DNA from: JADFSZ01 sp022560555 [NCBI: PVC group bacterium]
Lineage (GTDB): Bacteria; GCA-001730085; JADFSZ01
NCBI GenBank assembly: GCA_022560555.1
Contig: JADFSZ010000013.1
Coordinates: 1-16,636 of the forward strand
Length of the DNA stretch: 16,636 bases
Direction of reading: 5' to 3'
Numbering within the stretch: the stretch's first letter is position 1; each line of letters starts with the position of its first letter. Under the pieces are notes generated by a model, which worked only from the letters and a program-made list of their open reading frames with translations, made no database searches and was not told where the DNA came from. This document shows positions 1 to 14,131 of this stretch, in pieces. Both the position numbers and the translations under genes were made by a program.

Positions 1-1
1 G

Positions 2-112
2 TTTACATACAGCTATAGAAACTTTGTAGATCCGAGTGGAATTTTACCATCCTACGCTCAATTTATATTTGCGAATGGCATAACAGAATCTGAAATGTAT
101 GGCGTAAGATAA
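2..112 (+). CDS. C-terminal tail of a probable RHS/YD-repeat protein (partial)
   Basis: An open frame enters from the left edge and ends at a TAA at 110-112, giving 36 residues. It contains NFVDPSG, the hallmark of the RHS-associated core, which normally reads Y.YV.NNP.NFVDPSG. Here the segment before it is YSYR, so the usual NNP stretch is missing; the gene may be a degraded copy or a divergent tail. RHS proteins are large secreted or surface shells that often carry variable C-terminal toxins. The remainder after the motif is only about 23 residues, too short for a known toxin domain. The rest of the gene lies outside the window. The identification rests on one short motif, so it is moderate at best. 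Confidence 0.45.
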   Translation, partial: FTYSYRNFVDPSGILPSYAQFIFANGITESEMYGVR

Positions 113-182
113 CAAAGAGTATAACAAGCCCAGAAAACCGTACAATGCAGGGTTGGAATAATAAAGAAAGGAGATGGCCCCG

Positions 183-602
183 GTGGAAAGTAATGACAGA
201 AAAGAACAATTTATTGAAATGAGAGCAAAAGGGATAAGCTATGACAAGATTTCCAGGGCCCTAGCTGTATCTAAGCCCACTCTTGTGAGATGGAGTAAAG
301 GTTTATCACAAACCATTAAGAATATGAAAGCCATCGAATTAGAGGTGCTGCTTGAAAAATATTATGCTACCAAAGTGAAAAGGATTGAACTCTTTGGAGA
401 GAAATTAAAGTGTATCAAAGACGAATTGGATAAAAGGGAATTGTCAGAGGTCTCTACAGAGAAGCTTTTTGAATTATACGTTAGATTTATCGAAATTCTC
501 AAGAAAGAGGTAGTAGATGTAGTATTTAGCGCGGAAAGTGACGTCATCGAGATGGTACATAAAATGAGTCAAGAAATAAATACTGAAACCTGGGGTGGAT
601 GA
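183..602 (+). CDS. helix-turn-helix DNA-binding protein with helical C-terminal region
   Basis: I choose the GTG at 183 as the start. The Shine-Dalgarno AAAGGAG (167-173) lies 9 bases upstream of it, whereas the in-frame ATG at 174 abuts the SD and could not be used well. The product is 139 residues. The first ~35 residues form a homeodomain-like HTH (RKEQFIEMRAKGISYDKISR, then a recognition helix around SKPTLVRW), as in resolvases, transposases and phage small terminase subunits. The remaining ~100 residues are predicted to be charged, mostly helical and possibly coiled-coil, with no catalytic motif. Together with the excisionase-like gene downstream, this looks like a regulator from a mobile element or an RHS-associated accessory cluster. 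I do not recognise the family precisely. Confidence 0.7.
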   Translation: MESNDRKEQFIEMRAKGISYDKISRALAVSKPTLVRWSKGLSQTIKNMKAIELEVLLEKYYATKVKRIELFGEKLKCIKDELDKRELSEVSTEKLFELYVRFIEILKKEVVDVVFSAESDVIEMVHKMSQEINTETWGG

Positions 603-626
603 TAACAAAAGTTAACCGTTTTGTTA
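603..626. repeat. 8-bp perfect inverted repeat between the two HTH genes
   Basis: TAACAAAA (603-610) and TTTTGTTA (619-626) are perfect reverse complements separated by GTTAACCG. The repeat starts right after the upstream stop codon and ends 14 bases before the SD of the next gene. It is AT-rich with no T-tract, so it is not a convincing terminator. An operator for one of the flanking HTH proteins is possible, but that is inference. Confidence 0.4.
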
Positions 627-657
627 CCACTTTAGCAATGGAGGAGTAGATTGCCTG

Positions 658-840
658 ATGGAGAAGCGCTATATAAGTTCACAAGAGTTATCTGATTTTA
701 TTGGAGTTAAACCTCAAACCCTTCGAAAATGGGTCTGCTATCGTAAGATTCCTTTTTTCAAAGTAGGAAGAATGGTCAAGTTTGACCTCCGAGAAATAGA
801 GAAATGGATGGAGAAAAAACGCAGAAAAGCTCTATATTGA
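658..840 (+). CDS. excisionase-family (MerR-like, HTH_17) DNA-binding protein
   Basis: A complete 60-residue protein. ISSQELSDFIGVKPQTLRKW is the helix-turn-helix, followed by the RKIPFFKVGR wing and a final helix ending in a basic tail. This is the usual layout of excisionase or small MerR-like proteins, which bend DNA for site-specific recombination or act as small regulators. GGAGGAG (640-646) precedes the ATG by 11 bases. It sits 55 bases after the larger HTH gene on the same strand, probably co-transcribed. No integrase or attachment site is visible in the window, so an actual excision role is unproven. A B12 riboswitch transcript from the opposite strand points into this gene. Confidence 0.75.
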   Translation: MEKRYISSQELSDFIGVKPQTLRKWVCYRKIPFFKVGRMVKFDLREIEKWMEKKRRKALY

Positions 841-880
841 CAACTACCCAAAACTATAGTAATGTATAGAACATGGCTTT

Positions 881-897
881 GAAGAAAGGGATTCTTC
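881..897. repeat. small hairpin GAAGAA-aggga-TTCTTC
   Basis: A 6-bp perfect inverted repeat with a 5-base loop lies 40 bases after the stop of the excisionase-like gene. No T-run follows it on either strand, so I do not call it a terminator. It lies inside a wider inverted repeat (871-880 with 960-969, including one wobble pair) that brackets the riboswitch terminator. Confidence 0.35.
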
Positions 898-902
898 GAT
901 AA

Positions 903-943
903 TCAAAATCAAAATAAAACCCATCTTGAGAAAAGACGGGTTT
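903..943 (-). terminator. intrinsic terminator of the cobalamin riboswitch transcript
   Basis: Read on the minus strand, an 11-bp stem (933-943 with 917-927) closes a 5-base loop and is followed by the T-rich run TATTTTGATTTTG. The single non-Watson-Crick position is a G-U pair in minus-strand RNA but an A-C mismatch in plus-strand RNA, so the structure is built for minus-strand transcription. It lies about 58 bases past the aptamer, the normal place for a transcriptional expression platform. Confidence 0.8.
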
Positions 944-970
944 AAGAGATCAATAACCTAGAGCCATGTC

Positions 971-985
971 CCCTATCCTCGAGGG
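971..985 (-). other. small hairpin between aptamer and terminator (possible P13)
   Basis: On the minus strand CCCT (985-982) and AGGG (974-971) can pair around a 7-base loop, CGAGGAT. Cobalamin riboswitches normally carry a 3' hairpin whose loop kisses L5 of the aptamer when ligand is bound. The position fits, but I could not model the loop-loop contact. Confidence 0.35.
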
Positions 986-1000
986 TCAAGCGTGTTTACT

Positions 1001-1143
1001 CGCTAGCAGGCTTTCTGGCTCACGGCTTATCTACTCGCCCTGCCTTCCCACCCCAAATCTTCGGAGCAGTGGCTCTTTGGCTTTCGTATCCGTTTACAGC
1101 AGCGGGTCTGCACCTGATTTTCACAGGTTTTCCTACACTAACG
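1001..1143 (-). promoter_or_regulatory. cobalamin (B12) riboswitch aptamer, orphan
   Basis: Minus-strand reading matches the RF00174-type consensus in order: GGAAAACCTGTGAAAATCAG (B12 box region), CCCGCTGCTGTAAACGG, ACGAAAGCC, GAGCCACTG, GGGAAGG, then GAGCCAGAAAGCCTGC. Closing stem P1 pairs CGTTAG (1143-1138) with CTAGCG (1006-1001), six pairs including one G-U. A promoter lies upstream and an intrinsic terminator downstream, so the unit appears intact. Aptamers of this class bind adenosyl- or other cobalamins and usually turn off transport or synthesis genes. Here no minus-strand gene follows within the window; downstream lie only oppositely oriented accessory genes. The adjacent divergent gene makes adenosylcobalamin. 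Confidence 0.9.
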
Positions 1144-1181
1144 AAATGACTGTTTACAAAGAACGAAATTTAACAGCATCC

Positions 1182-1211
1182 AAAATAGCACGTCTTCAGA
1201 TAATTTGTCAA
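1182..1211 (-). promoter_or_regulatory. sigma70-type promoter for the cobalamin riboswitch
   Basis: On the minus strand TTGACA (1211-1206) is followed after 18 bases by TATTTT (1187-1182). Transcription would begin near 1175, about 30 bases before the aptamer's P1 stem. This is the expected geometry for a riboswitch leader. Confidence 0.6.
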
Positions 1212-1230
1212 TGGCTTATTTTTCGCCTCT

Positions 1231-1258
1231 TTTACAGAAGGTTCCTTTTATGTATAAT
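1231..1258 (+). promoter_or_regulatory. sigma70-type promoter for the corrinoid adenosyltransferase gene
   Basis: TTTACA (1231-1236), a 16-base spacer and a perfect TATAAT (1253-1258) lie just upstream of the gene, implying a leader of only ~20 bases. It is back to back with the minus-strand riboswitch promoter; the two -35 boxes are 19 bases apart. Confidence 0.6.
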
Positions 1259-1286
1259 ACACCGATTCATATCCACGGAAGAATTT

Positions 1287-1892
1287 ATGTCGCTACATAT
1301 TCATCGGGTATATACAAAAATCGGAGATGACGGATTAACACAACTTATGGGATCTCCCCGCGTTCCAAAGCATTCGCTTCCCATCGAATGCCTCGGGGCC
1401 TGTGACGAACTATGCGCTTTTATCGCCATGATTTCGATTCATTTAAAAGCTGTGAAAACGAAAAAGGTGTTTTCCGGGCAGATTATAAAACTGCTCACCC
1501 AAATCCAAAATGATGTGTTTGACATCGGGTACATCGTCACACACTCGAAACTTTCAGCCCATGATGCCCAATCCGTTTTTCCAACAAATAAAGTGGATCT
1601 TCTCGAAAAATGGCTGGACACGTGGTCTTCAGAACTCCCGCCTTTGATGTCTTTTATACTGGGCGGAGGAGGTATTCTTTCAGGTTCAACACACGTAGCG
1701 CGTACTATCTGCAGAAAAACAGAGAGGCTGTTCTGGGCCTATCAAAAAAAGAGGCGCTTGCCTTTGAGCTGTCTCAAATACCTTAATCGCTTATCGGATT
1801 TTTTGTTTGTGCTTGCCCGGAAATTGGCTTTCACATTCCACGAAAACGAAACCCTTTGGAATATCCCGAAAATCCCGCACCGAAAAAAATAA
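1287..1892 (+). CDS. pduO: PduO-type cob(I)alamin adenosyltransferase
   Basis: Transfers adenosyl from ATP to cob(I)alamin, making coenzyme B12. I start at ATG 1287 (201 residues). The open frame continues upstream to 966, but that part is the antisense of the riboswitch. Family marks include YTKIGDDGLTQLMGSPRV near the N-terminus (usual TRTGDxGxTxLxGGxRV), CDEL (usual VDEL), FILGGGG (usual FILPGG), the RTICRKTER arginine cluster for ATP, and the C-terminal YLNRLSDFLFVLARK signature. Several normally fixed residues differ (GG to GS; P to G in FILPGG), so it is a divergent member. The SD is weak (GGAAGA). It is convergent with ogt, 12 bases apart, with no terminator visible between them. The divergent B12 riboswitch supports a cobalamin role. 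Confidence 0.85.
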   Translation: MSLHIHRVYTKIGDDGLTQLMGSPRVPKHSLPIECLGACDELCAFIAMISIHLKAVKTKKVFSGQIIKLLTQIQNDVFDIGYIVTHSKLSAHDAQSVFPTNKVDLLEKWLDTWSSELPPLMSFILGGGGILSGSTHVARTICRKTERLFWAYQKKRRLPLSCLKYLNRLSDFLFVLARKLAFTFHENETLWNIPKIPHRKK

Positions 1893-1904
1893 AAAACCAA
1901 AAGC

Positions 1905-2333
1905 TTAAAGAAGATTTTCGACCTTTAGCAGTTTCTTCTTTTTCAAAATCCCGGATGAAAATCCACCGAGATCCCCATCGGATCGAACGACATAGTGACA
2001 CGGAATGAGAATCGGTGTACGGTTTTTGCTCATCACGCGGCCAACCGCGCGCGCGGCTTTCGGAACTCCCCCCTTTACGGCAAGTTCTTTGTAAGATAAG
2101 AGGCGCCCTGTTTTTCGTCTGTAAAGGGCCTTGAGGATCTTTTTTTCGAAAAGGGTGTATCTACCCCAATCAATTGAAACAGAGTTAAAACGCCGCAACC
2201 CCGTATCGCAATATTGAATTAAGGATGCTTTTAGTTTTTTTAAATCTAAATCATCCCTGTTTTCAACTCGCCCTTTTTGAAAATTAATAGAATAAACTTT
2301 TTTAGCCCGCATTTCCAGATGAATCCACCCCAT
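1905..2333 (-). CDS. ogt: methylated-DNA--[protein]-cysteine S-methyltransferase (Ogt/MGMT)
   Basis: Repairs O6-alkylguanine by irreversible transfer of the alkyl group to an active-site cysteine. With the start at ATG 2333 the protein has 142 residues. A winged-helix DNA-binding part (GRLLSYKELAVKGGVPKAAR, with the arginine finger in RAVG) leads to PCHYVV at residues 111-116, with acceptor Cys112, then GDLGGFSSG. The motif is normally PCHRVV, so Arg is replaced by Tyr. The open frame extends 43 codons further upstream, but that part overlaps the end of tgt in another frame and shows no homology; ATG 2312 is another possible start. No clear SD is seen. It starts 16 bases after tgt and is probably in one transcript with it. 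The N-terminal domain is short. Confidence 0.85.
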   Translation of the reverse strand: MGWIHLEMRAKKVYSINFQKGRVENRDDLDLKKLKASLIQYCDTGLRRFNSVSIDWGRYTLFEKKILKALYRRKTGRLLSYKELAVKGGVPKAARAVGRVMSKNRTPILIPCHYVVRSDGDLGGFSSGILKKKKLLKVENLL

Positions 2334-2349
2334 ATTTTTCGAATAAATA

Positions 2350-3504
2350 TTATCGGCTGCGACAAACTTTTTCAGATTTGTTCGACTGATACTCTTTGCA
2401 GAATTCTTTTTTGTAGTTTTCAAATGTGCCCTCCTCAATATGTTCGCGGCATTCCCGCACAAGGTTTAAAACAAAGTGAAGATTATGTATCGAATTTAGA
2501 TGCAATCCCAATATTTCCTGAGCCTGCATCAAATGCCGCAAATACGCCTTTGTAAATTTTTGACATGTAGCGCATGCACACCCCTCTTCTATCGGAGTAA
2601 AATCCTCGATGAATCTAGCGTTTCGAATGTTGATCGGCCCCTGTCTTGTGAAAAGAGACCCATTTCTGGCATTTCTGGTCGGCATCACACAATCAAACAT
2701 ATCAATACCTTCCCCGATCGCTCTCACCAAATCCACGGGTTCTCCGACTCCCATCAGATATCGGGGACGGTCTTCGGGCAAAAGATCAATAAAACTATCC
2801 AACACCCGGTACAATTCATCCCGCTCCTCTCCAACAGATAATCCGCCAATAGCATACCCGGGGAAATCCAAGCTCAACAATTCTTCGGCTGATTCTACCC
2901 GCAAATCAGGAAACATCCCTCCTTGAATAATTCCAAAGAGCATCTGACTGGGGTCTTGCCTTTGCACAAGAAATCGCTCTTTGGAAAGGGCGGCCCAGCG
3001 ATGTGTCCTCTGAAGAGAAATCCGGACTTCTTCTTGGGAGGCATCATGACTCACACATTCATCAAGCGGCATCAGTATATCTGAGCCCAACTGCAGCTGA
3101 AGATCAATCACTTTTGCGGGAGTTAACTCATGTTTGGATCCGTCAATATGTGACTGAAACGTGACACCCAAGTCTGTAATTGATCTAAGACGCGCTAAGC
3201 TAAAAACTTGAAACCCACCGCTGTCCGTTAATATCGGCTTTGGCCAAGCCATAAACTCATGAAGCCCGCCCGCTTTTTGAATGATGTCACACCCGGGCCT
3301 TAAATTGAGATGATAGGTGTTCGATAAAACAATCTCAGTTCCCATCTTCATCAAGTCATCGGGAGACAATGTCTTCACAGTCGCGAGAGTGCCAACAGGC
3401 ATAAAGACGGGAGTTTCGATCAGGCCATGGGCTGTTTGAAGTTCACCGGTACGCGCGCGCGTTTTTGCATCATGGGCCTTACGAATAAATGACATGCCGC
3501 TCAT
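2350..3504 (-). CDS. tgt: queuine/preQ1 tRNA-guanine transglycosylase
   Basis: Exchanges guanine-34 for preQ1 in tRNAs with GUN anticodons, in queuosine synthesis. It has 384 residues, normal for bacterial Tgt. Visible residues are Asp94 in DSGGFQVFS (general base), Asp271 in MFDCVMPTRNARNG (nucleophile), and the zinc site Cys309, Cys311, Cys314 and His340 (CACATC...SIHNLH), with spacing like the Zymomonas enzyme. QGGMF and GGLSVGE of the barrel are intact. ATG 3504 or ATG 3495 could start it; neither has a strong SD. The usual partners queA, yajC and secDF are absent nearby; ogt follows at once. Confidence 0.96.
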   Translation of the reverse strand: MSGMSFIRKAHDAKTRARTGELQTAHGLIETPVFMPVGTLATVKTLSPDDLMKMGTEIVLSNTYHLNLRPGCDIIQKAGGLHEFMAWPKPILTDSGGFQVFSLARLRSITDLGVTFQSHIDGSKHELTPAKVIDLQLQLGSDILMPLDECVSHDASQEEVRISLQRTHRWAALSKERFLVQRQDPSQMLFGIIQGGMFPDLRVESAEELLSLDFPGYAIGGLSVGEERDELYRVLDSFIDLLPEDRPRYLMGVGEPVDLVRAIGEGIDMFDCVMPTRNARNGSLFTRQGPINIRNARFIEDFTPIEEGCACATCQKFTKAYLRHLMQAQEILGLHLNSIHNLHFVLNLVRECREHIEEGTFENYKKEFCKEYQSNKSEKVCRSR

Positions 3505-3549
3505 TTTACATAAGAGCTTTCGGATTGTACAGGAATAGATAGATGGGAC

Positions 3550-4056
3550 TTAGAAGGCGCCGCTTTTTTTAGTATTGTCCTCGAGAGCCACTTCCAGATT
3601 TCTCCATTGTCCGGAAAGCTCTTCAATACAAAGAACAAGTTGCCGTACTTCAGGATAGAGGGTGTTGACAATTTTTGTTTTTTGATAAATTTCCGGTACG
3701 GACATCTCTTTCATAAGAACGGAGAACTTATTTAGTATTTCTGTTTTTTCTCTCGGAAACACAATCGAGGATTTAATCAAAGCTTCAACAAACTCTTTGA
3801 TCATTTGAGCCAAATGAACTTTTCCGAATCTGTGAAAATATTTAATTGCTTGATCAACACGGTATAGATGGACTCTCTCAATATGTTTCAGGGCATCAAC
3901 TGATATGTCCAAGAATTCACATGTAAAATCTTCAGGTATCAGTTCGGTCTCTTCAGGAATTTTGGCCGGTTTCTTTTTACGGAGGATGGCCAAATACCCT
4001 TTAATCTCTTCGGCCAAATTTTCCATGTATTCAAATTTAAACTTTCTCTTATTCAT
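3550..4056 (-). CDS. hypothetical all-helical protein
   Basis: I do not recognise this 168-residue protein. A strong SD, AAAGGAG (4072-4066), lies 9 bases before ATG 4056, so the start is secure. The sequence is charged and predicted mostly helical, with a basic N-terminus (MNKRKFKFEY), a short KKKPAKIPEE linker near residue 30, and then long amphipathic helices. There is no signal peptide, no membrane segment, and only one cysteine (Cys45) besides one near the C-terminus. A promoter and a palindrome-rich region lie directly upstream, so it is probably transcribed apart from moxR. tgt follows after 45 bases and may be co-transcribed. A regulatory or scaffold role is possible but unsupported. 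Confidence 0.75.
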   Translation of the reverse strand: MNKRKFKFEYMENLAEEIKGYLAILRKKKPAKIPEETELIPEDFTCEFLDISVDALKHIERVHLYRVDQAIKYFHRFGKVHLAQMIKEFVEALIKSSIVFPREKTEILNKFSVLMKEMSVPEIYQKTKIVNTLYPEVRQLVLCIEELSGQWRNLEVALEDNTKKSGAF

Positions 4057-4158
4057 ACCTTTTCACTCCTTTTGTAACAGAGACAATGCGCCGTACAGTT
4101 AAATGCGCAAGAAGCATGCCAAACAATAAATTTGTAAGCACTTAATATTAAATGGGTT

Positions 4159-4188
4159 AGATTATGACCAAGAATTAGAAAATGTCAA
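4159..4188 (-). promoter_or_regulatory. promoter for the hypothetical gene at 3550-4056
   Basis: On the minus strand TTGACA (4188-4183) and TAATCT (4164-4159) are separated by 18 bases. Transcription would start near 4152, about 95 bases before the ATG. It separates this gene, and perhaps tgt-ogt, from the moxR operon upstream. Confidence 0.5.
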
Positions 4189-4201
4189 AAATACTTAACA
4201 T

Positions 4202-4219
4202 TGTTACATCTGTGTAACA
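4202..4219. repeat. inverted repeat TGTTACA-tctg-TGTAACA
   Basis: A perfect 7-bp inverted repeat with a 4-base spacer, 13 bases upstream of the -35 box of the minus-strand promoter. Only the plus strand has a T-run after it (4220-4224), and no plus-strand gene ends here, so an operator is as likely as a terminator. A 12-bp perfect palindrome ATAGGGCCCTAT sits next to it at 4227-4238. Confidence 0.45.
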
Positions 4220-4226
4220 TTTTTCG

Positions 4227-4238
4227 ATAGGGCCCTAT
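4227..4238. repeat. 12-bp perfect palindrome after moxR
   Basis: ATAGGGCCCTAT is an uninterrupted 12-bp palindrome, 11 bases past the moxR stop codon. Without a loop it is unlikely to be a terminator. It may be a protein-binding site or chance. Confidence 0.3.
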
Positions 4239-4249
4239 AGTAAATATAT

Positions 4250-5242
4250 TTAAGGTACTTCAATCACGTTGAAGATTTTTTCGATGATATGTTCGCTCGT
4301 CAGATCCTCTGCCTCGGCTTCATACGTAATGATTACACGATGCCTTAGGATATCCATTCCAACCGATTTAACATCATGCGGAGTAACATAGCCGCGTCCG
4401 TTCAAAAAGGCATGGGCCTTGGACGCCAAGGCCAGAGAAATCGTCGCGCGGGGGGATGCCCCGTATTCAATAAAACTCGCGATATCCAGATTATACTGTT
4501 TTGGATCCCTTGTTGCCATCACAATGTCGACAATATAGTTTTCAAGTTTTTCATCCAAGTAGATCTCATTGATAATCTGTCTGGATTTGAGTATAACATC
4601 CGGAGTGACAATCGGCGTTACTTCTGTCTCTTTGTCAACCACAGCCATCCGTTTTAAAATTTCTTTCTCTTCTGCTTTATTGGGATATGTTATCTTCAAC
4701 TTCATCAAAAACCTGTCCACTTGCGCTTCAGGCAAAGGATAGGTCCCCTCCTGTTCAATAGGATTTTGTGTCGCAAATACAAGAAACAATGTATCCAGCT
4801 TTTTGGTTGAGCTTCCCAAGGTGACTTGGCGTTCCTGCATCGCTTCAAGAAGAGCGCTTTGCACTTTCGCGGGCGCGCGATTAATTTCGTCTGCTAAAAT
4901 AATATTTGAAAAAATAGGCCCTTCTTTGACGGAGAAGGTCCCGTCCTTTGGATTATAGATCTGTGTACCAACGATATCGGCCGGAAGTAAATCAGGTGTG
5001 AATTGAATTCTTTGAAATTTAGCTTGAATGGTTTTGGCGAGGGTTGAAATAGTAAGTGTCTTGGCAAGTCCGGGAACACCTTCAATCAAAATATGGCCGT
5101 CTGTCAGAATCCCGATGAGGAGACGTTCAATCACATAACGCTGTCCAACAATAACTTTAGAGATCTCATCCCGTAAGCGCTCAAGGTAAATCCCCTCCGA
5201 TCGAACACGTTCATTTAACGCCTGAATGTCATCATGTCTCAT
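4250..5242 (-). CDS. moxR: MoxR-family AAA+ ATPase
   Basis: A cytoplasmic AAA+ chaperone-like ATPase of 330 residues, normal for MoxR. Walker A is GVPGLAKT (55-62), Walker B IILADE (114-119), sensor 1 ATQNP (157-161), and PEAQVDRF (171-178) carries the conserved arginine. The C-terminal lid has SPRATISLALASKAHA. MoxR proteins usually activate or assemble metal enzymes or envelope complexes and are encoded with DUF58 and von Willebrand factor A proteins. None of those follow here: a different transcription unit comes next. The start ATG 5242 lies 8 bases after the DUF4186 gene, with a weak AAGG, so it is probably the last gene of the rny-ymdB-DUF4186-moxR unit. Confidence 0.93.
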   Translation of the reverse strand: MRHDDIQALNERVRSEGIYLERLRDEISKVIVGQRYVIERLLIGILTDGHILIEGVPGLAKTLTISTLAKTIQAKFQRIQFTPDLLPADIVGTQIYNPKDGTFSVKEGPIFSNIILADEINRAPAKVQSALLEAMQERQVTLGSSTKKLDTLFLVFATQNPIEQEGTYPLPEAQVDRFLMKLKITYPNKAEEKEILKRMAVVDKETEVTPIVTPDVILKSRQIINEIYLDEKLENYIVDIVMATRDPKQYNLDIASFIEYGASPRATISLALASKAHAFLNGRGYVTPHDVKSVGMDILRHRVIITYEAEAEDLTSEHIIEKIFNVIEVP

Positions 5243-5250
5243 ATATCGCC

Positions 5251-5664
5251 TTAAGACTTCTCTGTTCCGATTTTTTCCTTCTTGTCCTTTTTCCTTTTAG
5301 GTTGATTTTTTACACATTGTTTTTCCAGCCACTCAAGAATCACATCTCCTGTGTACTGAATTTCTTTCTGATTCAATTGTCGATTTATTTTAATTTTGTG
5401 CCATTTCTCAAGACATTTCCTACAGCAAGTAGCTGTTGCGTGCTGAGCTTTAAATACGGGATGTCCCGACATGGGTGTCTGCTTTCCGTCATTTTTAATC
5501 ACCGGCGGCGCAATCCGACGCGCTATGAAATCATAGGCATGCTTCTTTATCGTATCAAACCCTCGAACAGAAATATATTCCAAATCTTTTTCATCCAGCT
5601 TAAACTGACTTCTGAAACTTGATTGTGTTAAACGTTTCAATACATCATCGATTTTTTTAGACAT
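5251..5664 (-). CDS. DUF4186 family protein
   Basis: 137 residues. The pattern RLTQSSFRSQFKL, FDTIKKHAYDFIARRIAPP, NDGKQTPMSGHPVFKAQHAT, ATCCRKCLEKWHKI and VILEWLEKQ matches the DUF4186 family as I know it. Conserved histidines plus the CCRKC cluster suggest a metal site, though no activity is established. The C-terminal ~20 residues are a Lys-rich tail (KKDKKEK). The gene overlaps ymdB by 8 bases and ends 8 bases before moxR, so translation is probably coupled. A purine-rich SD (AGAGGAG) stands directly before ATG 5664. Function unknown; the context links it to RNA turnover genes by operon only. Confidence 0.85.
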   Translation of the reverse strand: MSKKIDDVLKRLTQSSFRSQFKLDEKDLEYISVRGFDTIKKHAYDFIARRIAPPVIKNDGKQTPMSGHPVFKAQHATATCCRKCLEKWHKIKINRQLNQKEIQYTGDVILEWLEKQCVKNQPKRKKDKKEKIGTEKS

Positions 5665-6457
5665 GCTCCTCTTTCCCTTCTAGTTGGTAAACAACACGTT
5701 TAATCTCTGTAGCTTTTCCTGTTTTCTCATCAACTTCAACAGAGATTCCGGAAGCTCGCACATCATGAACGGCTACGTCAAATCGCTCCGGCTGCCTGGA
5801 TAAAAATGTCTTTATCACTTTTTCCTTATCACGTCCAATAACCGAATCATAAGGCCCCGTCATCCCGACATCCGTAATATAGGCCGTTCCCTTTGGCAAA
5901 ATCCGTTCATCCGCTGTCGGCACATGTGTGTGTGTTCCAAACATACAGCTGACTTGGCCGTCTAAATACCACCCCATAGCTATTTTCTCTGACGTGGCTT
6001 CAGTATGAAAATCCACAAAAATAATGTTCGTTTCTTTTTGAAGCTGTTTCACAAGTCTGTCCGCTTTTCGAAACGGACAATCCACCGGATTCATAAAAAC
6101 ACGTCCGATCAGATTGATCACACCCACCGATAGGCCGGTACGGGAGGAGACCACAACATGTCCTTGTCCGTGAGTGTCATCCGGATAATTAGCCGGACGC
6201 AGCAGACACGCCTGTTCGTCCAAATACTCTAAAACATCCCTCTTTTTCCATACGTGATCCCCGGTTGTAATCACGTCAATACCGCAGTCCAAAAGTTCTT
6301 CCGTTAACCTTTTCGTGATTCCGGACCCCGCCGCGGCATTTTCCCCGTTGACAATAACAAAATCGAATCCTTCTCTTTCTATAACGCCTCCAAGAACCAC
6401 TTTAAGAATATCGCGTCCGGGACGGCCAACCACATCACCTAATATTAAAGTTTTCAT
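5657..6457 (-). CDS. ymdB: YmdB-family metallophosphoesterase (TIGR00282)
   Basis: 266 residues. Members hydrolyse 2',3'-cyclic nucleotides and in Bacillus affect biofilm and motility gene expression. Metal-ligand positions are visible: Asp8 in LGDVVGRPGR, Glu39-Asn40 in VNGENAA, Asp67-His68 in TTGDHVW, His151 in VDFHTEATSEK, and His176/His178 in GTHTHVPTADE. Position 67 is Asn (GNH) in the Bacillus protein, so GDH is a ligand-position variant. The gene directly follows rny, a pairing known from Firmicutes; the gap is 39 bases with no strong SD. It overlaps the next gene by 8 bases. Confidence 0.94.
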   Translation of the reverse strand: MKTLILGDVVGRPGRDILKVVLGGVIEREGFDFVIVNGENAAAGSGITKRLTEELLDCGIDVITTGDHVWKKRDVLEYLDEQACLLRPANYPDDTHGQGHVVVSSRTGLSVGVINLIGRVFMNPVDCPFRKADRLVKQLQKETNIIFVDFHTEATSEKIAMGWYLDGQVSCMFGTHTHVPTADERILPKGTAYITDVGMTGPYDSVIGRDKEKVIKTFLSRQPERFDVAVHDVRASGISVEVDEKTGKATEIKRVVYQLEGKEEHV

Positions 6458-6496
6458 ATCATGAGAGTCCGGATCATAGGTTCATGGTTTTTCGAT

Positions 6497-8065
6497 TTAT
6501 TTGGCATACTCAACAGATCGAGTCTCTCGAATGACCACAACTTTGATTTGTCCGGGATACGCAACTTCCTCCTCAAGTTTTTTGGCAATATTTCGCGCAA
6601 TCAAGGGAGAATCCGGATCTCCGATTTCGTCCGGTTTGACAACAACCCGAATCTCACGGCCGGCCTGAATAGCATGAACCTTTTCGATTCCGCGGAACGA
6701 TTCGGCAATTTGCTCGATTTTGGCCATGCGTTTTATATAGGCTTCCAATGTGTCACGCCTGGCCCCGGGCCGGGCGGCCGACATGGCATCCGCCGCGGCT
6801 ACCAACACCGCCATCAATGTTTCAGGCTCTTCTTCCCCATGATGACTCGCAACCGCGTTGCAAATCTCCGGAATTTCTCCGTATTTACGGCAGAGATTCC
6901 CGCCAATCACGGCGTGGGATCCTTCAACTTCATGATCAACAGCTTTGCCTATATCATGCAGAAACCCGGCACGGCGACACAACTGAATATCAACTCCAAG
7001 CTCACCGGCCATCGTTCCCATAAGATAGGCGATTTCTTTGCTATGTCTCAGAATGTTTTGCCCGTAACTGGTACGATATTTAAGACGTCCCATCAGACGA
7101 ATGAGCTCTGGGTTCATGCCCCGCAGACCCAATTCCAGCGCCGCCTGCTGCCCGTCTTCAACCATCTTTTCTTCGATTTCGTTCCGTGTTTTTTCAACAA
7201 CTTCCTCAATGCGTGCAGGATGTATACGGCCGTCAGATATCAGCTTTTCTAAACTGATCCGGGCGATTTCCCTCCGGACTTTGTTAAACCCGGAAATAAT
7301 CACCGCTTCGGGCGTATCATCAATGATCACATCGATCCCCGTGGCGGATTCAAAAGCACGAATATTCCGGCCCTCCCGGCCGATAATACGGCCCTTCATC
7401 TCATCATTGGGCAAATGCACAACGGAAACAGTCGTCTCTACCACATGCTCCGCGGCGTATTTCTGGATCGCGAGACCGACAATGTTCCTCGCGCGTTTCT
7501 TTGATGTTTCCCGCGTCTCATCTTCGACCTGTTTGACAATAATAGCGGCCTCATGCTTAACATCATCTTCGATCTTTTCCAATAAAAGCTTTTTTGCTTC
7601 CTGTGAACTCACACCGGAAATTCTTTCCAGTTCCCGCTTTTCTTCACTGATCAGGCAATCAATTTCTTTTGATCGCGTATCAATTTTAGTCTCCGCTTCT
7701 TTAACCGTCTTTTCCTTCTCGTCCAAATCATAAATCTTCTTATCAAGATATTCAAGACGCTTATCAAGATTAGTCTCTTTTTGCGCTAAACGTCTCTCGT
7801 ATTCGAGAAGCTCTTGCTTGCGGGTTTTGGTTGATTCATCAAATTCCGCCGTTGCTTTCAATTTCCAATCTTTTAACTCAAATTCAGCTTCTTTGCGCCG
7901 TGAATCAATCTCCTTTTCGGTTTCATCTTTAACACGCGTAATGTAATTTTCTGTATCCTTAATTTTCCGGCTAGTTAGAAATTTTCGCAGATAAAAACCG
8001 ATGAAAAAGAAAATGACGCCACAGACAAGGACCGTTAGGGCAAACCAAAACACAATCTGCTGCAA
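6497..8065 (-). CDS. rny: ribonuclease Y
   Basis: A membrane-anchored endoribonuclease that initiates mRNA decay. 522 residues, close to the ~520 of Bacillus RNase Y. In order: an N-terminal transmembrane helix (about 4-26), a long charged coiled coil (30-200), a KH domain ([15 protein letters not shown] at 225-239), and an HD domain with His370-Asp371 in [12 protein letters not shown] plus SHHGEEEPE; the C-terminus ends in the typical [12 protein letters not shown]. The start is a TTG at 8065, chosen because AAGGGGGTG (8081-8073) sits 7 bases upstream and no in-frame ATG precedes the membrane helix. That SD is locked in a 15-bp hairpin with an anti-SD-like segment. The only strong promoter seen is ~390 bases upstream. 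Confidence 0.95.
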
Positions 8066-8072
8066 ATGAATA

Positions 8073-8118
8073 CACCCCCTTCATATCAATCAATCGATCA
8101 TTGGACATAAAGGAGGTG
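8073..8118 (-). promoter_or_regulatory. SD-sequestering hairpin in the rny leader
   Basis: In minus-strand RNA, GUGGAGGAAAUA-like complementarity is perfect: segment 8118-8107 (CACCTCCTTTAT) pairs with 8084-8073 (ATGAAGGGGGTG), and three further pairs continue inward (8106-8104 with 8087-8085), for 15 bp around a 16-base loop. Three pairs are G-U on the minus strand and become A-C mismatches on the plus strand, so the structure is specific to the rny transcript. The 3' arm is the whole rny SD. The 5' arm, ATCACCTCCTTT (8120-8109), equals the 3' end of 16S rRNA. This should strongly limit rny translation unless it is opened or cut. Confidence 0.7.
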
Positions 8119-8464
8119 ATAATTTTTTTATCTTCGCTGAAAAGTCTTAAATAAAAAAATAGGTCAACGAATTAAGAACAGTTTTTAGATTCACTCGAAT
8201 TCGGAAATGCACGTCCATATCTTGATTTTGAATATGGTGATCAAATAATTGCCACCTGAGTATTGGGTCATCATGATTTTCACTTGAGTCGCTTTGCATC
8301 ACGTTGATTCAGGGTAAACTTCTTCAAAAACAGGAGTGCATTCGCATTCTAAAACTGTAACTCTATTTCCCACAATATGTTAACAATAGATTTTAACTGA
8401 CTTTTTGTTAGACTTTTGTCCTTGGTTAGTAATCGGTAGTAATAGGCTCTCTTTTAGACATAAA
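8119..8464 (-). other. long non-coding leader region upstream of rny
   Basis: About 345 bases with no convincing gene on either strand; the longest minus-strand reading frame starting with ATG that I noticed is 27 codons. It holds a 10-bp A/T inverted repeat (8122-8131 with 8151-8160), CCATAT/ATATGG arms (8215-8220 with 8232-8237), two degenerate ~25-base direct repeats (8236-8261 and 8265-8289) and a short tandem repeat (8424-8433 and 8435-8443). I recognise no riboswitch or housekeeping RNA. If transcription starts at the promoter at 8465-8493, the region is the rny 5' leader. Confidence 0.5.
8236..8289. repeat. two degenerate ~25-bp direct repeats
   Basis: The plus-strand segments 8236-8261 and 8265-8289 both begin with GGT/GGGT, contain a CATC/GATCA-like core followed by AT-rich bases, and end in CAC(C/T)TGAGT, only 3 bases apart. 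Multiple short repeats of this kind occur at the ends of some insertion sequences (IS21 family among them), but no transposase remains nearby. The identity is tentative. Confidence 0.3.
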
Positions 8465-8493
8465 ATTATAAAGCATGTTGCGGCGGATGTCAA
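8465..8493 (-). promoter_or_regulatory. perfect-consensus sigma70 promoter upstream of rny
   Basis: On the minus strand TTGACA (8493-8488), exactly 17 bases, then TATAAT (8470-8465): both hexamers and the spacer match consensus. The -35 box overlaps the stop codon of the epimerase gene. Transcription would start near 8458, giving rny a leader of about 390 bases, or driving a separate small RNA from the gap. Confidence 0.7.
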
Positions 8494-9440
8494 CTACGAC
8501 AATACGGGCTCTTCTGATACCAAAGAATCGTTTTCTTAATCCCTTCTTCCAGACCAACACTTGGCTTGTACCCCAATAATCTCTTGGCCTTACGAATATC
8601 CGCATGGGAGTGCTTCACATCTCCGACTCGCGGGGCAGCATAACGAAAAGAAACATCCGTTTTGATATGCCTCTTGAGAATACGTCCCAATGTGTTTAAA
8701 TCAACACGGCTTCCACAACCAATATTATAGACTTCACCCAGAGCCTTTCGGGGCGCCCGACACGCCTTCAAGTTGGCTAAAACCACATTTTGGACATAGG
8801 TAAAATCACGGCTCTGAAAGCCATCTCCATAAATGGTGGGAGCCTTTCCATCCAACAACGATACAATGAATTTAGGAATCGCGGCCGCGTAAAACGACGC
8901 GGGATCCTGATAAGGGCCGAACACATTAAAATATCTGAGGCCAATAACCGGAACCTTGTATAGGTCATAAAACATTTTCGCGTATTGCTCGTTGTTTAAC
9001 TTTTGAAGAGCATACGGAGATAACGGGCTTGGAATAATCTTTTCGTGTTTGGGCAACACTTTTGTATCCCCATAAACGGCCGATGAGGATGCGTACACAA
9101 CACGTTTAATTCTTGACTCTTTCGCGGCAAAAAAGATATTAAATGTTCCGTTGATGTTCATATCATGACTTTTATCCGGATGCTCACAAGACAACGGAAC
9201 GGACGGCAACGCCGCCAGATGAATACAATAGTCTACACCGCGCATCGCGCGTTTTACCGTCTTCAAATTACGGATATCTCCCTTGATAAATTGGATTTTT
9301 TTACCGCATTCCGAAAGATTTTTCGCGGATCCCGTCAGCAAATTATCCAAAACGACAACGCGATGCTTTTTGGCTACCAACGCGTGAACAACATTTGAGC
9401 CTATAAAACCCGCTCCGCCTGTCACAAGAAATTTTGCCAT
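8490..9440 (-). CDS. NAD-dependent epimerase, UDP-N-acetylglucosamine 4-epimerase type (WbpP/GalE-like)
   Basis: An extended short-chain dehydrogenase of 316 residues. GGAGFIG (8-14) is the Rossmann NAD site; the catalytic set is Ser118-120 with Tyr143 and Lys147 (SPYALQK). GLRYFNVFGPYQDP, YAAAIPKF and YGDGFQSRDFTYVQN match the WbpP/TviC group, which interconverts UDP-GlcNAc and UDP-GalNAc (or their uronic acids). It starts 14 bases after the upstream dehydrogenase with no SD, so it is probably coupled to it. With the two dehydrogenases it supplies acidic UDP-sugars for a surface polysaccharide. Substrate preference (acetylated or not) cannot be fixed by eye. Confidence 0.88.
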   Translation of the reverse strand: MAKFLVTGGAGFIGSNVVHALVAKKHRVVVLDNLLTGSAKNLSECGKKIQFIKGDIRNLKTVKRAMRGVDYCIHLAALPSVPLSCEHPDKSHDMNINGTFNIFFAAKESRIKRVVYASSSAVYGDTKVLPKHEKIIPSPLSPYALQKLNNEQYAKMFYDLYKVPVIGLRYFNVFGPYQDPASFYAAAIPKFIVSLLDGKAPTIYGDGFQSRDFTYVQNVVLANLKACRAPRKALGEVYNIGCGSRVDLNTLGRILKRHIKTDVSFRYAAPRVGDVKHSHADIRKAKRLLGYKPSVGLEEGIKKTILWYQKSPYCRS

Positions 9441-9454
9441 ATTGGTATTGTGTC

Positions 9455-10756
9455 CTATATAAGTACTATTTTGCTACTCTTAATGCCTTTCGTGATATAA
9501 CGCGTATCAATCAGCATGGAGCAGTTTTTGACAATGTTTTTGATTTGTTTTTTATAAGCCAAGTGGTCTGTAATCAGCAAAACACAATCCATCGATTTTA
9601 AATTTGCAGGCGTGGGCTTTTTATAAACACCCTGAATATGTCCATCCATTTTGGCATAATAAGGATCATGGATAAAGATTTTTGCTCCTTTGGTATTAAG
9701 AGCGCTAATAATATCAAGGGCCGGGGATTCCCGGATATCATGAACATCTTTTTTATACGCAAGACCCAGTATATAGATCTTCGCGCTTTTGATGGATTTG
9801 CGCCTTTCATTCAGGGCCTCAATGGTTTTTTGAATCACATACTGCGGCATCATGCGATTGATCTGGCTTGCCAGATCAATAAACCTGGCCTCAAAATCAA
9901 ACATACGGGCCTTCCAAGACAAATACAATGGATCAATAGGAATGCAATGACCGCCTAATCCCGGGCCGGGATAAAAGGGCATAAAACCAAAGGGCTTTGT
10001 CGCGGCCGCCTCTATCACTTCCCAGACATTGATATTCATCTTGTCGCACATCATCGCGAGCTCATTGACAAGACCAATATTCACAATGCGAAACGTGTTC
10101 TCAAGGAGCTTTACCATCTCCGCGCTTTGGGTGGATGACACTTGAATCACCTTAGGAATAATATTTTGATAGAGCGCGGCCGCGATTTTCGTAGATAAGG
10201 GGTCAATCCCTCCGACCACTTTAGGGATATCTTTGGTTTTATAATTTTTATTGCCCGGATCAACACGTTCGGGAGAAAAAACCAGTAAAAAATCTTTTTT
10301 CGGAACAAGACCAGCGTCCATCAGCATTTGCGCGATCACTTCGTCCGTCGTCCCCGGATATGTAGTGCTTTCTAAAATGATAAGACGTTTTTTAGCATTT
10401 AAAGATAAGATACTCTCTACGGCCTGAATGATATAAGACACATCCGGCTCTCTCGTCTTTCTTAAAGGGGTCGGAACACAAATAATGACAACATCCGTAT
10501 CATTCAAGGCCGAAGTGTCGCTGAAGGGCATAAATGTCTTTCGCTTTAGGGTGCTTTTGACTTCCGTATCTTTCACATCACCGACATAGGACTTTCCACG
10601 GCAAAGAGAGGACACCTTTTCTTCGTTTAAATCAACGCCCTTGACACGAAACCCTTTTTTGGCAAATTCCAACGCGAGTGGCAGCCCCACATACCCAAGC
10701 CCGATCACGCCGATAACAGCTTTCTTCTTTTTGATTTTTTCCAATAAAAATTTCAT
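9455..10756 (-). CDS. UDP-N-acetyl-hexosamine 6-dehydrogenase (WbpA/WbpO/TviB-like)
   Basis: Two-step NAD-dependent oxidation of C6 of a UDP-HexNAc to the uronic acid. 433 residues. The Rossmann start is GVIGLGYVGLPLA (16-28); ESTTYPGTTDE (129-139) and FSPERVDPGN (160-169) are typical of the WbpA/TviB branch rather than UDP-glucose dehydrogenases. Lys216 and Asn220 in VKLLENTFR and catalytic Cys271 in GLGGHCIPIDP are present. It overlaps ugd by the 4 bases ATGA and precedes the WbpP-like epimerase by 14 bases. The pair parallels TviB-TviC, which make UDP-GalNAcA. GlcNAc versus GalNAc use is inference. Confidence 0.9.
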   Translation of the reverse strand: MKFLLEKIKKKKAVIGVIGLGYVGLPLALEFAKKGFRVKGVDLNEEKVSSLCRGKSYVGDVKDTEVKSTLKRKTFMPFSDTSALNDTDVVIICVPTPLRKTREPDVSYIIQAVESILSLNAKKRLIILESTTYPGTTDEVIAQMLMDAGLVPKKDFLLVFSPERVDPGNKNYKTKDIPKVVGGIDPLSTKIAAALYQNIIPKVIQVSSTQSAEMVKLLENTFRIVNIGLVNELAMMCDKMNINVWEVIEAAATKPFGFMPFYPGPGLGGHCIPIDPLYLSWKARMFDFEARFIDLASQINRMMPQYVIQKTIEALNERRKSIKSAKIYILGLAYKKDVHDIRESPALDIISALNTKGAKIFIHDPYYAKMDGHIQGVYKKPTPANLKSMDCVLLITDHLAYKKQIKNIVKNCSMLIDTRYITKGIKSSKIVLI

Positions 10757-12075
10757 AGTCTTACCTTCATTTTCTCAAAATTTGTTTTTCGCCCGATACT
10801 GATATATTGTAATTGATGCTCTTCCATTTGAAAAGGCTCATATATATTCCGCCCATCAATCACGAGAGGATTTTTTAATTCCCTCTTTATACGATGTAAA
10901 TCCAAGCCCTTAAATTCCGGCCATTCCGTTAAAATAACAAGAACATCACAATCTCTGGCCGCCTCATACGGGTTGTGAACATAGGTCAAATCCGGAAATA
11001 TTGACCGGGCTTTTTCTATCGCCTCCGGATCATAGGCTTTGATCCTCGCCCCTCGTTTTAACAAAAATTTAATCACATCAATGGAAGGAGCATTTCTCAT
11101 ATCATCTGTGTTCGGCTTATAGGCGAGGCCCCAAATGCCAATTTTTTTCCCATTGAGATCACCGAGAGCATCTTCGATTTTTTTACAAAACATTGTTCGC
11201 TGATTTTTATTGATTTTTTCTACCTCAGAGAGCAGCCCAAAATCATACCCTAAATCCTTCGCGATCCGGCGGAAAGCAGCAACATCTTTCGGGAAACATT
11301 CGCCCCCATAGCCGATTCCAACACCAAAAAACTTTGTCCCGATCCTTGGATCAAATCCCATACCCTGAACCACTTCTTTAACGTCCGCGCCGGACAACTC
11401 GCATATATTTGCCAAAGCATTCGCGAAAGATATCTTCGTCGCTAAAAACGAATTGGATGCGTGTTTAATCATTTCCGCGCTACGGATATCCGTTGTAAAT
11501 ATTTTCTTCTGAAACGGACTATACAAATCCGTTAATATCTTCTTGGCTTTCTCACTTTCAACACCAATAATAATTCGATCCGGATTCAAAAAGTCCTTAA
11601 CGGCGGATCCTTCGCACAAAAACTCCGGGTTGGATGCCACATCAAAAGAACAGGAGGATTTTAAAGATTCTTTAATGGTCTTAAAAACCCATTCGCATGT
11701 TTTAACAGGAACAGTGCTTTTCTCCACAATGACTTTATATCCATTTAGATTTTCGGCTATCTCCCTCGAAACTTTTTCTATATAGGTAAGGTCCGCTCCC
11801 CCATCGGGAAGAGGAGGTGTCTGCACACAGATAAAAACAACCAAACTGTCCTGGATGCTTGTTTTTATGTCTGTCGAAAATTCCAAACGTCCTTCATTCC
11901 TATTCCGTTCGATAAGCTCCTTGAGTCCCGGCTCATAGATCGGCATACCGCCTTGAATGAGTTCGTTGATCTTGCCTTCATCATGATCCACACAAATGAC
12001 ATCATTGCCCATACTGGCCAAACACGTGCCGGTCACTAAGCCAACGTAGCCCGTTCCTATAATGGTGATTTTCAC
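10753..12075 (-). CDS. ugd: UDP-glucose 6-dehydrogenase
   Basis: Oxidises UDP-glucose to UDP-glucuronate. 440 residues, normal for the bacterial family. MKITIIGTGYVGLVTGTCLA is the classic Rossmann start; VEKSTVPV (117-124), SNPEFLCEGSA (148-158), Lys204/Asn208 in MIKHASNSFLATKISF, and catalytic Cys260 in GYGGECFPKD are all visible, as is GLAYKPNTDDMRNAPS in the C-terminal domain. It overlaps gatA and the next dehydrogenase by 4 bases at each end (ATGA junctions), so it is translationally coupled on both sides. It stands where gatB would be expected after gatA. Confidence 0.95.
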   Translation of the reverse strand: MKITIIGTGYVGLVTGTCLASMGNDVICVDHDEGKINELIQGGMPIYEPGLKELIERNRNEGRLEFSTDIKTSIQDSLVVFICVQTPPLPDGGADLTYIEKVSREIAENLNGYKVIVEKSTVPVKTCEWVFKTIKESLKSSCSFDVASNPEFLCEGSAVKDFLNPDRIIIGVESEKAKKILTDLYSPFQKKIFTTDIRSAEMIKHASNSFLATKISFANALANICELSGADVKEVVQGMGFDPRIGTKFFGVGIGYGGECFPKDVAAFRRIAKDLGYDFGLLSEVEKINKNQRTMFCKKIEDALGDLNGKKIGIWGLAYKPNTDDMRNAPSIDVIKFLLKRGARIKAYDPEAIEKARSIFPDLTYVHNPYEAARDCDVLVILTEWPEFKGLDLHRIKRELKNPLVIDGRNIYEPFQMEEHQLQYISIGRKTNFEKMKVRL

Positions 12076-13541
12076 GCGGAACTTTCGGTTTCAAATTTTG
12101 GTTTCTGCTTGTGGTGATCGGTGGCCTGTTCATAAGCGTGGGCGGCTTCTAAAACAGCACTTTCTTCAAAAGCCCGGCCTAAAAGCTGTAACCCGACAGG
12201 AAGTCCTGACTTGTCAAAACCACACGGGAGTGAGATCCCGGGTAATCCGGCTAAATTGGCAGAAATCGTAAACACATCAGACAAATACATATTGAGAGGG
12301 TCATCCGTCTTTTCTCCCAAACGAAAGGCCGTTGTCGGAGAAGTCGGCGTTAAGACGAGGTCAACCGCTTCAAACGCCTTGTCAAAATCCTGTTTGATCA
12401 AAGTCCGAGCCTTTTGCGCCTTCAAATAATAAGCATCGTAATACCCTGAACTCAAAGCATAGGTTCCCAAAAGGATTCTTCTCTTCACTTCCGGGCCAAA
12501 CCCTTGACCACGCGTTTCTTTGTACATGTCTTTCAACCCTAATTTTCCGCTCGCCCGATACCCATATTCAACACCGTCATAACGAGCTAAATTTGAACTG
12601 GCTTCCGCCGTTGCGATAATATAGTAGACAGCAATACAGTACTCGGTATGCGGCAATGTGATCTCACTCATATGAGCACCCAGTTTTTCATAAACATCAA
12701 TGGTATCTTTAATGGATTTTTTAACTTCCGGATCTACCCCCTCGATAAAATACTCTTTCGGAACACCGATCTTCACACCTTTTACGCCTTTTTCTATAGC
12801 GTTCGTATACAACGGAGGCTCTTTGTCAACAGAGGTCGCATCCATCGGATCTTTCCCGGAAATAACTTCCAATAATAAAGCCGCGTCACGAACGTTTTTA
12901 CTAAACGGGCCAATCTGGTCCAACGAAGACGCAAACGCGACCAAACCGTACCGCGACACACGGCCATAAGTCGGCTTCATCCCCACCACACCGCAAAAAG
13001 ATGCCGGCTGGCGAATTGATCCTCCTGTATCGGAGCCCAAACCTAAAACGACCTCGTCTCCTGCCACAGCCACGGCGGATCCCCCGGACGATCCTCCGGG
13101 AGCACGAGTGATATCCCAGGGATTTCGACTGGCACCAAACGCGGAATTTTCCGTGGATGATCCCATCGCAAATTCATCAAGATTAGTTTTCCCGATTATG
13201 ATAGCATCCTCGGCCTTCAGCTTCTCGACAACAGTGGCATTATAGGGCGACATATATCCCTCGAGTATTTTCGACGAACACGTTGTCGGCATCCCGATGG
13301 TCATAAGATTATCTTTAATAGCAATCGGAACACCTGCTAATTTCCCAAGCGATTGACCTTTGGCCCTTTTTTGGTCAATCCGTTCGGCCTCTTTAAGAGA
13401 CGCGGCTTCATTGAGCGCGAGAAAAGCTTTGAGATGAGAATCCTTATCACGAATTGTCTGAAAAACATCTTTGATACAGTCAACAGTAGATATTTCTTTG
13501 CTAGTGTATTTTTCCTGCAGACTTTGCACGCTTAATTCCAT
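12072..13541 (-). CDS. gatA: aspartyl/glutamyl-tRNA amidotransferase subunit A
   Basis: The amidase subunit of GatCAB: hydrolyses glutamine and supplies ammonia to convert Glu-tRNA(Gln) or Asp-tRNA(Asn). 489 residues. The amidase-signature Ser-cisSer-Lys triad is visible: Lys76 (AIKDN), Ser151 (GGSSGGSA) and Ser175 (GSDTGGSIRQPA), each three residues lower than in the Staphylococcus enzyme. It starts 11 bases after gatC without a recognisable SD, so coupling is likely. gatB does not follow; ugd does, overlapping by 4 bases. Confidence 0.97.
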   Translation of the reverse strand: MELSVQSLQEKYTSKEISTVDCIKDVFQTIRDKDSHLKAFLALNEAASLKEAERIDQKRAKGQSLGKLAGVPIAIKDNLMTIGMPTTCSSKILEGYMSPYNATVVEKLKAEDAIIIGKTNLDEFAMGSSTENSAFGASRNPWDITRAPGGSSGGSAVAVAGDEVVLGLGSDTGGSIRQPASFCGVVGMKPTYGRVSRYGLVAFASSLDQIGPFSKNVRDAALLLEVISGKDPMDATSVDKEPPLYTNAIEKGVKGVKIGVPKEYFIEGVDPEVKKSIKDTIDVYEKLGAHMSEITLPHTEYCIAVYYIIATAEASSNLARYDGVEYGYRASGKLGLKDMYKETRGQGFGPEVKRRILLGTYALSSGYYDAYYLKAQKARTLIKQDFDKAFEAVDLVLTPTSPTTAFRLGEKTDDPLNMYLSDVFTISANLAGLPGISLPCGFDKSGLPVGLQLLGRAFEESAVLEAAHAYEQATDHHKQKPKFETESSA

Positions 13542-13552
13542 AATAGAAAGGC

Positions 13553-13840
13553 CTATTCGATAACCGGAGGAACCAGAAAAAATCCGTCTTGCTGTTTTGG
13601 CGCTTGATTCAAGACCTGATCACGGTTGACACTCGGTTTAATTTCATCTTTGCGAAAAACATTTTCAAGATCAAGGACATGGTCCATCGGCAACACATTT
13701 GTTGTGTCCAATTCATTCAGTTTTTCAATGTATTTTAGAATGCTTTCGAGCTGACCTAGATACAATGTCTTTTCCTTTTCTGACAATTGGACATGCGCGA
13801 GAGTGGACGTATACTCTATATCTTTTTTAGAGAGAGGCAT
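13553..13840 (-). CDS. gatC: aspartyl/glutamyl-tRNA amidotransferase subunit C
   Basis: A small 95-residue belt subunit that holds GatA and GatB together. It shows the family pattern: an N-terminal helix beginning LSKKDIEYTSTLAHVQLSEK, the QLESILKYIEKLNELDT helix, PMDHV, then R.DE at 63-66 and a C-terminal DGFFLVPPVIE. The SD AAGGGA overlaps the purS stop codon, 8 bases away, so purS and gatC are one transcript. Confidence 0.93.
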   Translation of the reverse strand: MPLSKKDIEYTSTLAHVQLSEKEKTLYLGQLESILKYIEKLNELDTTNVLPMDHVLDLENVFRKDEIKPSVNRDQVLNQAPKQQDGFFLVPPVIE

Positions 13841-13848
13841 AGGTCCCT

Positions 13849-14103
13849 TCAGGTTTCGATCCTGGTAATATCATAGGAATATTGTTCAATCACAGGATTG
13901 ACAAGAAGCTTTTGACACATATTCTTCAGGATGTCTTCGGCTTCTTTTGCACTCTTAGAATTTAATTTGATTTCCATGTATTTCCCCAAGCGCACATCCT
14001 CAACACCTTGGAATGCGAGACTTTTGAGGGCATTTTGAACCGTGACCCCCTGGGGATCCAACACGCTCTTTTTCAATGTGACATAAACCTTTGCTAAAAA
14101 CAT
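13849..14103 (-). CDS. purS: phosphoribosylformylglycinamidine synthase, PurS subunit
   Basis: The small subunit of the PurLQS complex (fourth step of purine synthesis), bridging PurQ and PurL. I start at ATG 14103, giving 84 residues (usual 80-85): FLAKVYVTLKKSVLDPQG matches the family N-terminus and GAGGAAGG (14117-14110) lies 6 bases upstream. The open frame extends 15 codons further but that part overlaps purC and lacks homology. GVEDVRLGKYMEIKL and the C-terminal LLVNPVIEQY are typical. purQ and purL are not in the window. Confidence 0.92.
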   Translation of the reverse strand: MFLAKVYVTLKKSVLDPQGVTVQNALKSLAFQGVEDVRLGKYMEIKLNSKSAKEAEDILKNMCQKLLVNPVIEQYSYDITRIET

Positions 14104-14131
14104 AAGATGCCTTCCTCTATCGGTGCCTTTT

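Follow-up and report, generated by a model that had tools for sequence, protein, structure and literature searches.

Results

A cobalamin riboswitch probably severed from its operon

We describe a complete cobalamin (B12) riboswitch that has no gene behind it before its contig stops. It is probably an ordinary leader of the terminator type, severed from a B12-uptake operon where accessory DNA intervenes and the assembly has a gap. The window, by which we mean the whole stretch of DNA analysed, takes up contig C146 completely (bases 1-16636), one of 222 contigs. The assembly holds 1,658,262 bases and is 91.54% complete with 1.98% contamination.

The aptamer lies on the minus strand at 1157-988 and matches the known family RF00174 over its full length (cmscan, model positions 1-189 of 189, E = 7.6e-20). 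A preliminary description of this DNA, made from the letters alone, had proposed a complete B12 aptamer on this strand, with P1 at 1143-1001, and had suggested an Infernal search with RF00174 as a check. That search scores well above the gathering score (84.1 against 31.5 bits), the placement of P1 agrees with the covariance-model alignment, and the unit is confirmed as a genuine and complete cobalamin riboswitch. Between 600 and 1300, RF00174 is the sole RNA family matched at E values up to 1, a count that leaves out two overlapping matches of the same clan. The genome has one RF00174 match at E 0.001, the C146 site.

Adjoining the riboswitch and divergent from it is a B12 gene that is absent from the earlier account. 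It encodes a PduO-type cob(I)yrinic acid a,c-diamide adenosyltransferase (1287-1892, plus strand, start codon placed by eye), with 152.2 bits for PF01923 and 130 bits for TIGR00636 against a cut-off of 108.45. The consensus scan places a promoter-like site, TTTACA-16-TATAAT, ahead of it (1231-1258, plus strand, 11 of 12 matches). PduO is present in 23 of 59 relative genomes. It falls within 5 kb downstream of RF00174 on the same strand in two genomes, G053 and G026 (distances by eye), and in G043 it stands 8 kb from a riboswitch match in divergent orientation, that match being below the gathering score (by eye). A PduO scan of the genome contig collection returned 27 pattern matches, none of them a relative. 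The minus strand folds well at 1218-1326 (z -4.3, 25 shuffles), across from where the adenosyltransferase gene begins.

A terminator-type expression platform

The aptamer is flanked by candidate elements of a transcriptional switch. Upstream, a consensus scan finds TTGACA-18-TATTTT, a promoter-like site in which TG precedes the second hexamer (1211-1182, minus strand, 10 of 12 consensus matches). The preliminary description had called these positions a promoter. The site is there, but such sites are common (9 in 3 kb against 6.0 expected in shuffles), and its use is plausible rather than proven.

Downstream of the aptamer, the expression platform contains an intrinsic-terminator-like site, as the preliminary description had also proposed (943-903, minus strand). 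The terminator scan gives a stem of 11 pairs with a loop of 5 at 943-917, followed by the T-rich tail TATTTTGATT at 916-903, and the hairpin folded alone reaches -12.7 kcal/mol. Its direction follows from G-U asymmetry, again as described: on the plus strand the G-U pair becomes C-A and the stem breaks at that point. Terminator-like sites are as frequent as in shuffles (3 found against 3.0 expected). We nevertheless regard the promoter-like and terminator-like sites as credible because their order and spacing fit around a strong aptamer.

The linker between aptamer and terminator (985-962, minus strand) contains the stretch GAGGAUAGGG, which can pair with the 5' arm of the terminator in a duplex of -10.2 kcal/mol. 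Judged from these energies, it is a plausible antiterminator. By eye, a five-codon ORF stands behind a GAGG-like site in the expression platform (967-950, minus strand); we put it down to chance and do not count it as a gene.

In the cobalamin riboswitch family, binding of B12 favours the terminator, and lack of B12 lets transcription run on. The folding energies make a corresponding switch plausible for the C146 leader. RNA polymerase would start near 1175 on the minus strand. With cobalamin, most likely the ligand, bound to the aptamer, the terminator at 943-917 would form and release a short transcript of some 270 nt. Without cobalamin, the terminator arm would be held in the other pairing and transcription would continue.

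No same-strand gene before the contig end

The minus strand runs for 987 bases past the aptamer before the contig stops. The longest ORF in these bases, of 61 aa, is antisense to the gene at 174-602. The earlier observation that the roughly 900 bases downstream hold plus-strand genes only is thereby borne out. As controls we took 20 riboswitch loci from other genomes, drawn from the 22 best-scoring RF00174 rows among the relatives' genomes and so not a random sample. In 19 of them an ORF of 180 aa or more begins on the same strand within 700 nt. The 20th is cut by a contig end at 355 nt. ORFs were called mechanically in these loci, and an opposite-strand ORF is the longer one in 2 of the 19 (L009 and L015). 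The absence of a same-strand gene after the C146 riboswitch is an unusual arrangement.

The preliminary description went further and spoke of a riboswitch with no gene to regulate. It is correct that no minus-strand gene follows on the contig, but the phrase overstates the case. As the contig comprises nothing beyond the window, the statement can hold only up to the point where the assembly stops, 916 bases past the terminator, and contig C130 carries a candidate target in its btuC-DUF71 pair. We attribute the absence of the target mainly to foreign-looking DNA and the contig end.

Probable accessory DNA in bases 1-868

The stretch from the contig end to base 868 is compositionally atypical. 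Its GC content is 0.368 against a mean of 0.434 (sd 0.025) in 198 windows of the same genome, and its tetranucleotide distance, 0.477 against 0.316 (sd 0.031), exceeds that of all 198. These control windows are half-overlapping and come from part of the genome, with some source pieces overlapping each other; the same pieces gave both controls and reference, and the test leans slightly towards a foreign call for 1-868. A Markov-model scan is less clear: 400-base windows in 1-900 score about -1 to -2.5 sd with no sharp boundary, and equally low scores are given to the riboswitch itself.

The plus-strand genes of this stretch look mobile-element derived. At 174-602, a 142-aa HTH_23-like protein (Pfam, below cut-off) has relatives of 31-37% identity in four Bacillota plasmid records of 11 to 38 kb, and two of the three plasmids inspected have genes for a tyrosine integrase and a partition-type ATPase close to the relative. 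The protein has matches in 5 of 386 genomes, its own included; one of the others reaches E 7e-9 and three lie between 5e-4 and 1e-3. Phage sequences searched with it gave no relatives, and in IMG/VR the protein alone found none while a four-sequence alignment found one. At 658-840, a 60-aa excisionase-type HTH_17 protein scores above the cut-off of TIGR01764. It does not align with the 60-aa HTH protein encoded on the Streptococcus plasmid. The HTH_17 protein also resembles MAD1 of a methylation-associated defence system (NF047737, E 9.3e-10, 38.6 bits against a cut-off of 80).

Bases 1-868 are thus probable accessory DNA, putatively of mobile origin and cut by the contig end. The preliminary description had offered two explanations for the missing gene, displacement by an accessory insert or a B12-controlled non-coding RNA as the product. 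We favour displacement: the outlying composition and the plasmid-type and excisionase-type genes speak for it, even though the Markov-model scan is less clear.

A candidate target on contig C130

The natural target would most likely be the B12-uptake operon of the genome, part of which is assembled at the right end of C130. This contig carries the only FecCD match of the genome, for which the best NCBIfam names are two BtuC models, both below cut-off. The btuC gene is followed by a gene for a DUF71 protein. Its start lies 84 bases from the right contig end, and these bases hold 30 codons of open frame and nothing else; there is no riboswitch ahead of btuC in them. The orientation is compatible with a continuation of the leader, as the minus strand of C146 exits at the left end and that of C130 enters from the right end. 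For the assembly as a whole, about 1% of random gene starts would lie this near an upstream-side contig end, and about 12% of random sites would have a downstream-side end no more than 917 bases away, both values being reckoned after the fact. After btuC-DUF71, C130 also encodes an UpxY-family (RfaH/NusG-like) antiterminator that scores above cut-off (16219-16752 of the piece L046, minus strand).

The ends of C146 and C130 are most likely linked, without an overlap of sequence: the window shares no 16-mer with the 2,580-base end piece of C130 (L045). Under the severed-operon explanation, the assembled part of the operon would consist of btuC-DUF71 and the end of a single gene upstream of it. 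Leader and operon would lie apart through the accessory DNA of 1-868, which would follow the leader, and a break of the assembly inside it.

Other uptake components were sought in the bin. BtuF and a TonB plug were not found, in a bin that is 91.54% complete. Queried with the ATPase of the related locus L112, the genome gave 18 ABC ATPase matches and no clear BtuD. The best of them, on C216, was rejected as BtuD because it lies beside genes for a zinc-type binding protein and a Fur-like protein (by eye). The absence of BtuF, the TonB plug and BtuD is compatible with a severed operon because one missing piece between C146 and C130 would explain it. The 30-residue tail upstream of btuC is a weak candidate for the end of BtuD. 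Compared with three ATPases, its score was reached by 1, 34 and 39 of 300 shuffles, and for an unrelated frame the figure was 13 of 300. BLASTP with the tail found nothing.

Loci that combine btuC, DUF71 and a riboswitch are found elsewhere. We scanned the genome contig collection with a DUF71 alignment and took the best 80 of 594 confirmed loci. A BtuC relative occurs in 3 of these 80 and PduO in 1, and as many of the loci are short, more may lie beyond their ends. Seven of the 80 were searched for RNA families, and RF00174 was found in all three btuC-bearing loci and in none of the four others. The nearest, L112, has in order a riboswitch, a TonB receptor, an ATPase, btuC, BtuF (by eye) and DUF71. 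Its btuC product is 47% identical to the C130 BtuC over 316 residues; its TonB receptor and ATPase are below the NCBIfam cut-offs. For the other two, L116 and L097, gene order comes from ORFs, motifs and tblastn only. PMC3541065 reports that 75 of 102 DUF71 genes of the B12 group have B12 transporter genes next to them, and the C130 gene may be a member of this group.

Btu operons led by RF00174 are a close known counterpart of the C146 site. It shares with them the full aptamer, the promoter-like site and the intrinsic terminator, and B12 genes stand nearby (the divergent PduO gene) or elsewhere in the genome (btuC-DUF71). It differs in that the target gene is off the contig and foreign-looking plus-strand genes come after the terminator.

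Several observations weigh against severance from this operon. DUF71 and the riboswitch are often apart; the two share a contig in none of the five genomes that have both (G021, G022, G039, G040 and G042). No overlap joins the contigs, the BtuD tail is weak, the Markov-model scan has no sharp edge, and a larger fold, described below, suggests that leader DNA extends to about 868. Of the 59 relatives, one genome is labelled as belonging to the same phylum, and searches of it for the riboswitch, PduO and DUF71 gave no match.

The severed-operon explanation provides a concrete and testable link between the left end of C146 and the right end of C130, and points to a probable site of accessory DNA beside the B12 locus of a sparsely sampled phylum. 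Beyond this it is mostly a caution: when a fragmented assembly shows a riboswitch "without a gene" and a contig end is close by, a severed operon is the first explanation to consider.

A possible larger fold around the terminator

RNA that reads through the terminator could adopt a larger fold at 972-868 of the minus strand. An outer helix of 11 bp (972-962 with 878-868) encloses the terminator and a second hairpin at 897-881. The segment 974-866 folds to -37.6 kcal/mol (z -5.3; none of 200 shuffles folds as well) and ranks second among 2066 distinct windows of both strands, each folded with 25 shuffles (2068 foldings, two repeated). We consider this fold suggestive, as its limits were set after the helix was seen and the fold scan gives comparable helices in eight of its rows, which fall at five places in the window. 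If the fold is real, the DNA of the leader itself would reach as far as about 868, leaving 28 bases to the stop codon of the HTH_17 gene. A reading of the inverted repeat 868-878/962-972 as a MITE or transposon was rejected, since a whole-genome search finds no second match to bases 1-985.

The strongest fold of the scanned windows lies elsewhere, at 8066-8174 of the minus strand (z -5.5, 25 shuffles). It is directly upstream of an ORF at 8065-6497 that is RNase Y-like by eye, and it matches no Rfam family at the gathering score of that family.

Alternative explanations

The missing target might also be an artefact, with the left 868 bases or so misjoined to a riboswitch that is really followed directly by its gene. 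The atypical composition of 1-868 would be expected of such a chimera, and an assembly this fragmented, with measurable contamination and a contig end inside the stretch itself, makes misjoins conceivable. A real insertion would look alike, however. The fold at 972-868 reaches across the likely join, and the genome contains no repeat of 1-985 that could have caused it. We consider a chimera unlikely.

The second explanation of the preliminary description, that the read-through RNA is itself the product, has precedents. B12 riboswitches control AspocR and Rli55 in Listeria, which are RNAs and not genes (PMC8079631), and EutX in Enterococcus is likewise an RNA under a B12 riboswitch (PMC5821096). 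For Clostridioides difficile, a review lists riboswitches of other classes that have antisense RNA targets, and in addition one orphan riboswitch with no known function (PMC11477304). The C146 RNA could be antisense to the HTH_17 and HTH_23 genes and repressed by B12, as AspocR is, or it could be a protein-binding decoy RNA.

The resemblance to both kinds is partial. AspocR (Rli39) is antisense to pocR in Listeria monocytogenes, and read-through of the C146 terminator would similarly oppose genes for DNA-binding proteins, which lie antisense with their 3' ends first. The promoter-like site, aptamer and terminator are all complete, the stretch 974-866, which includes the terminator, folds better than its shuffles, and the terminated form, at about 270 nt, is near in size to AspocR (230 nt) and Rli55 (200 nt; PMC8079631). 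Unlike pocR, the opposed genes look mobile and have no known B12-linked regulator among them; the HTH proteins showed no B12 link in our searches. As for the decoys of EutV, EutX and Rli55, the C146 leader shares with them a short terminated form and a structured region past the terminator.

Binding sites of ANTAR proteins are hexaloop hairpins. The hairpins here have loops of 5, and no hexaloop hairpins are seen. A search for ANTAR proteins gave no match in this genome, but the control genomes gave none either. Conservation of the C146 arrangement is seen in no relative. A non-coding RNA as the product is quite unlikely in our judgement, and if the antisense form of it were true, it would add one more to the B12 riboswitches that act through a non-coding RNA. 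The more specific proposal, that under B12 scarcity the read-through RNA would fold at 972-868, cover the HTH_17 and HTH_23 mRNAs and so tie the accessory element to the B12 state of the host, appears highly doubtful.

That the riboswitch is a relic, its target lost and no function left, would agree with the absence of a target on C146 and of BtuB plug and BtuF matches in the genome, but is very unlikely given an intact aptamer and terminator, which fit recent separation or selection, and the retention of btuC-DUF71 and of methionine synthase (MetH).

The methionine synthase, which also counts in favour of the severed-operon explanation, is encoded on contig C204 and is of the B12-dependent type. 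It exceeds both NCBIfam cut-offs, scoring 1557.3 bits where the cut-off is 1497, and covers model positions 326-1232 of 1234. A further protein with a B12-binding domain and, by eye, an HTH-like N-terminus is encoded on contig C180 (3-737 of the piece L044, minus strand), where its gene is cut by the contig end.
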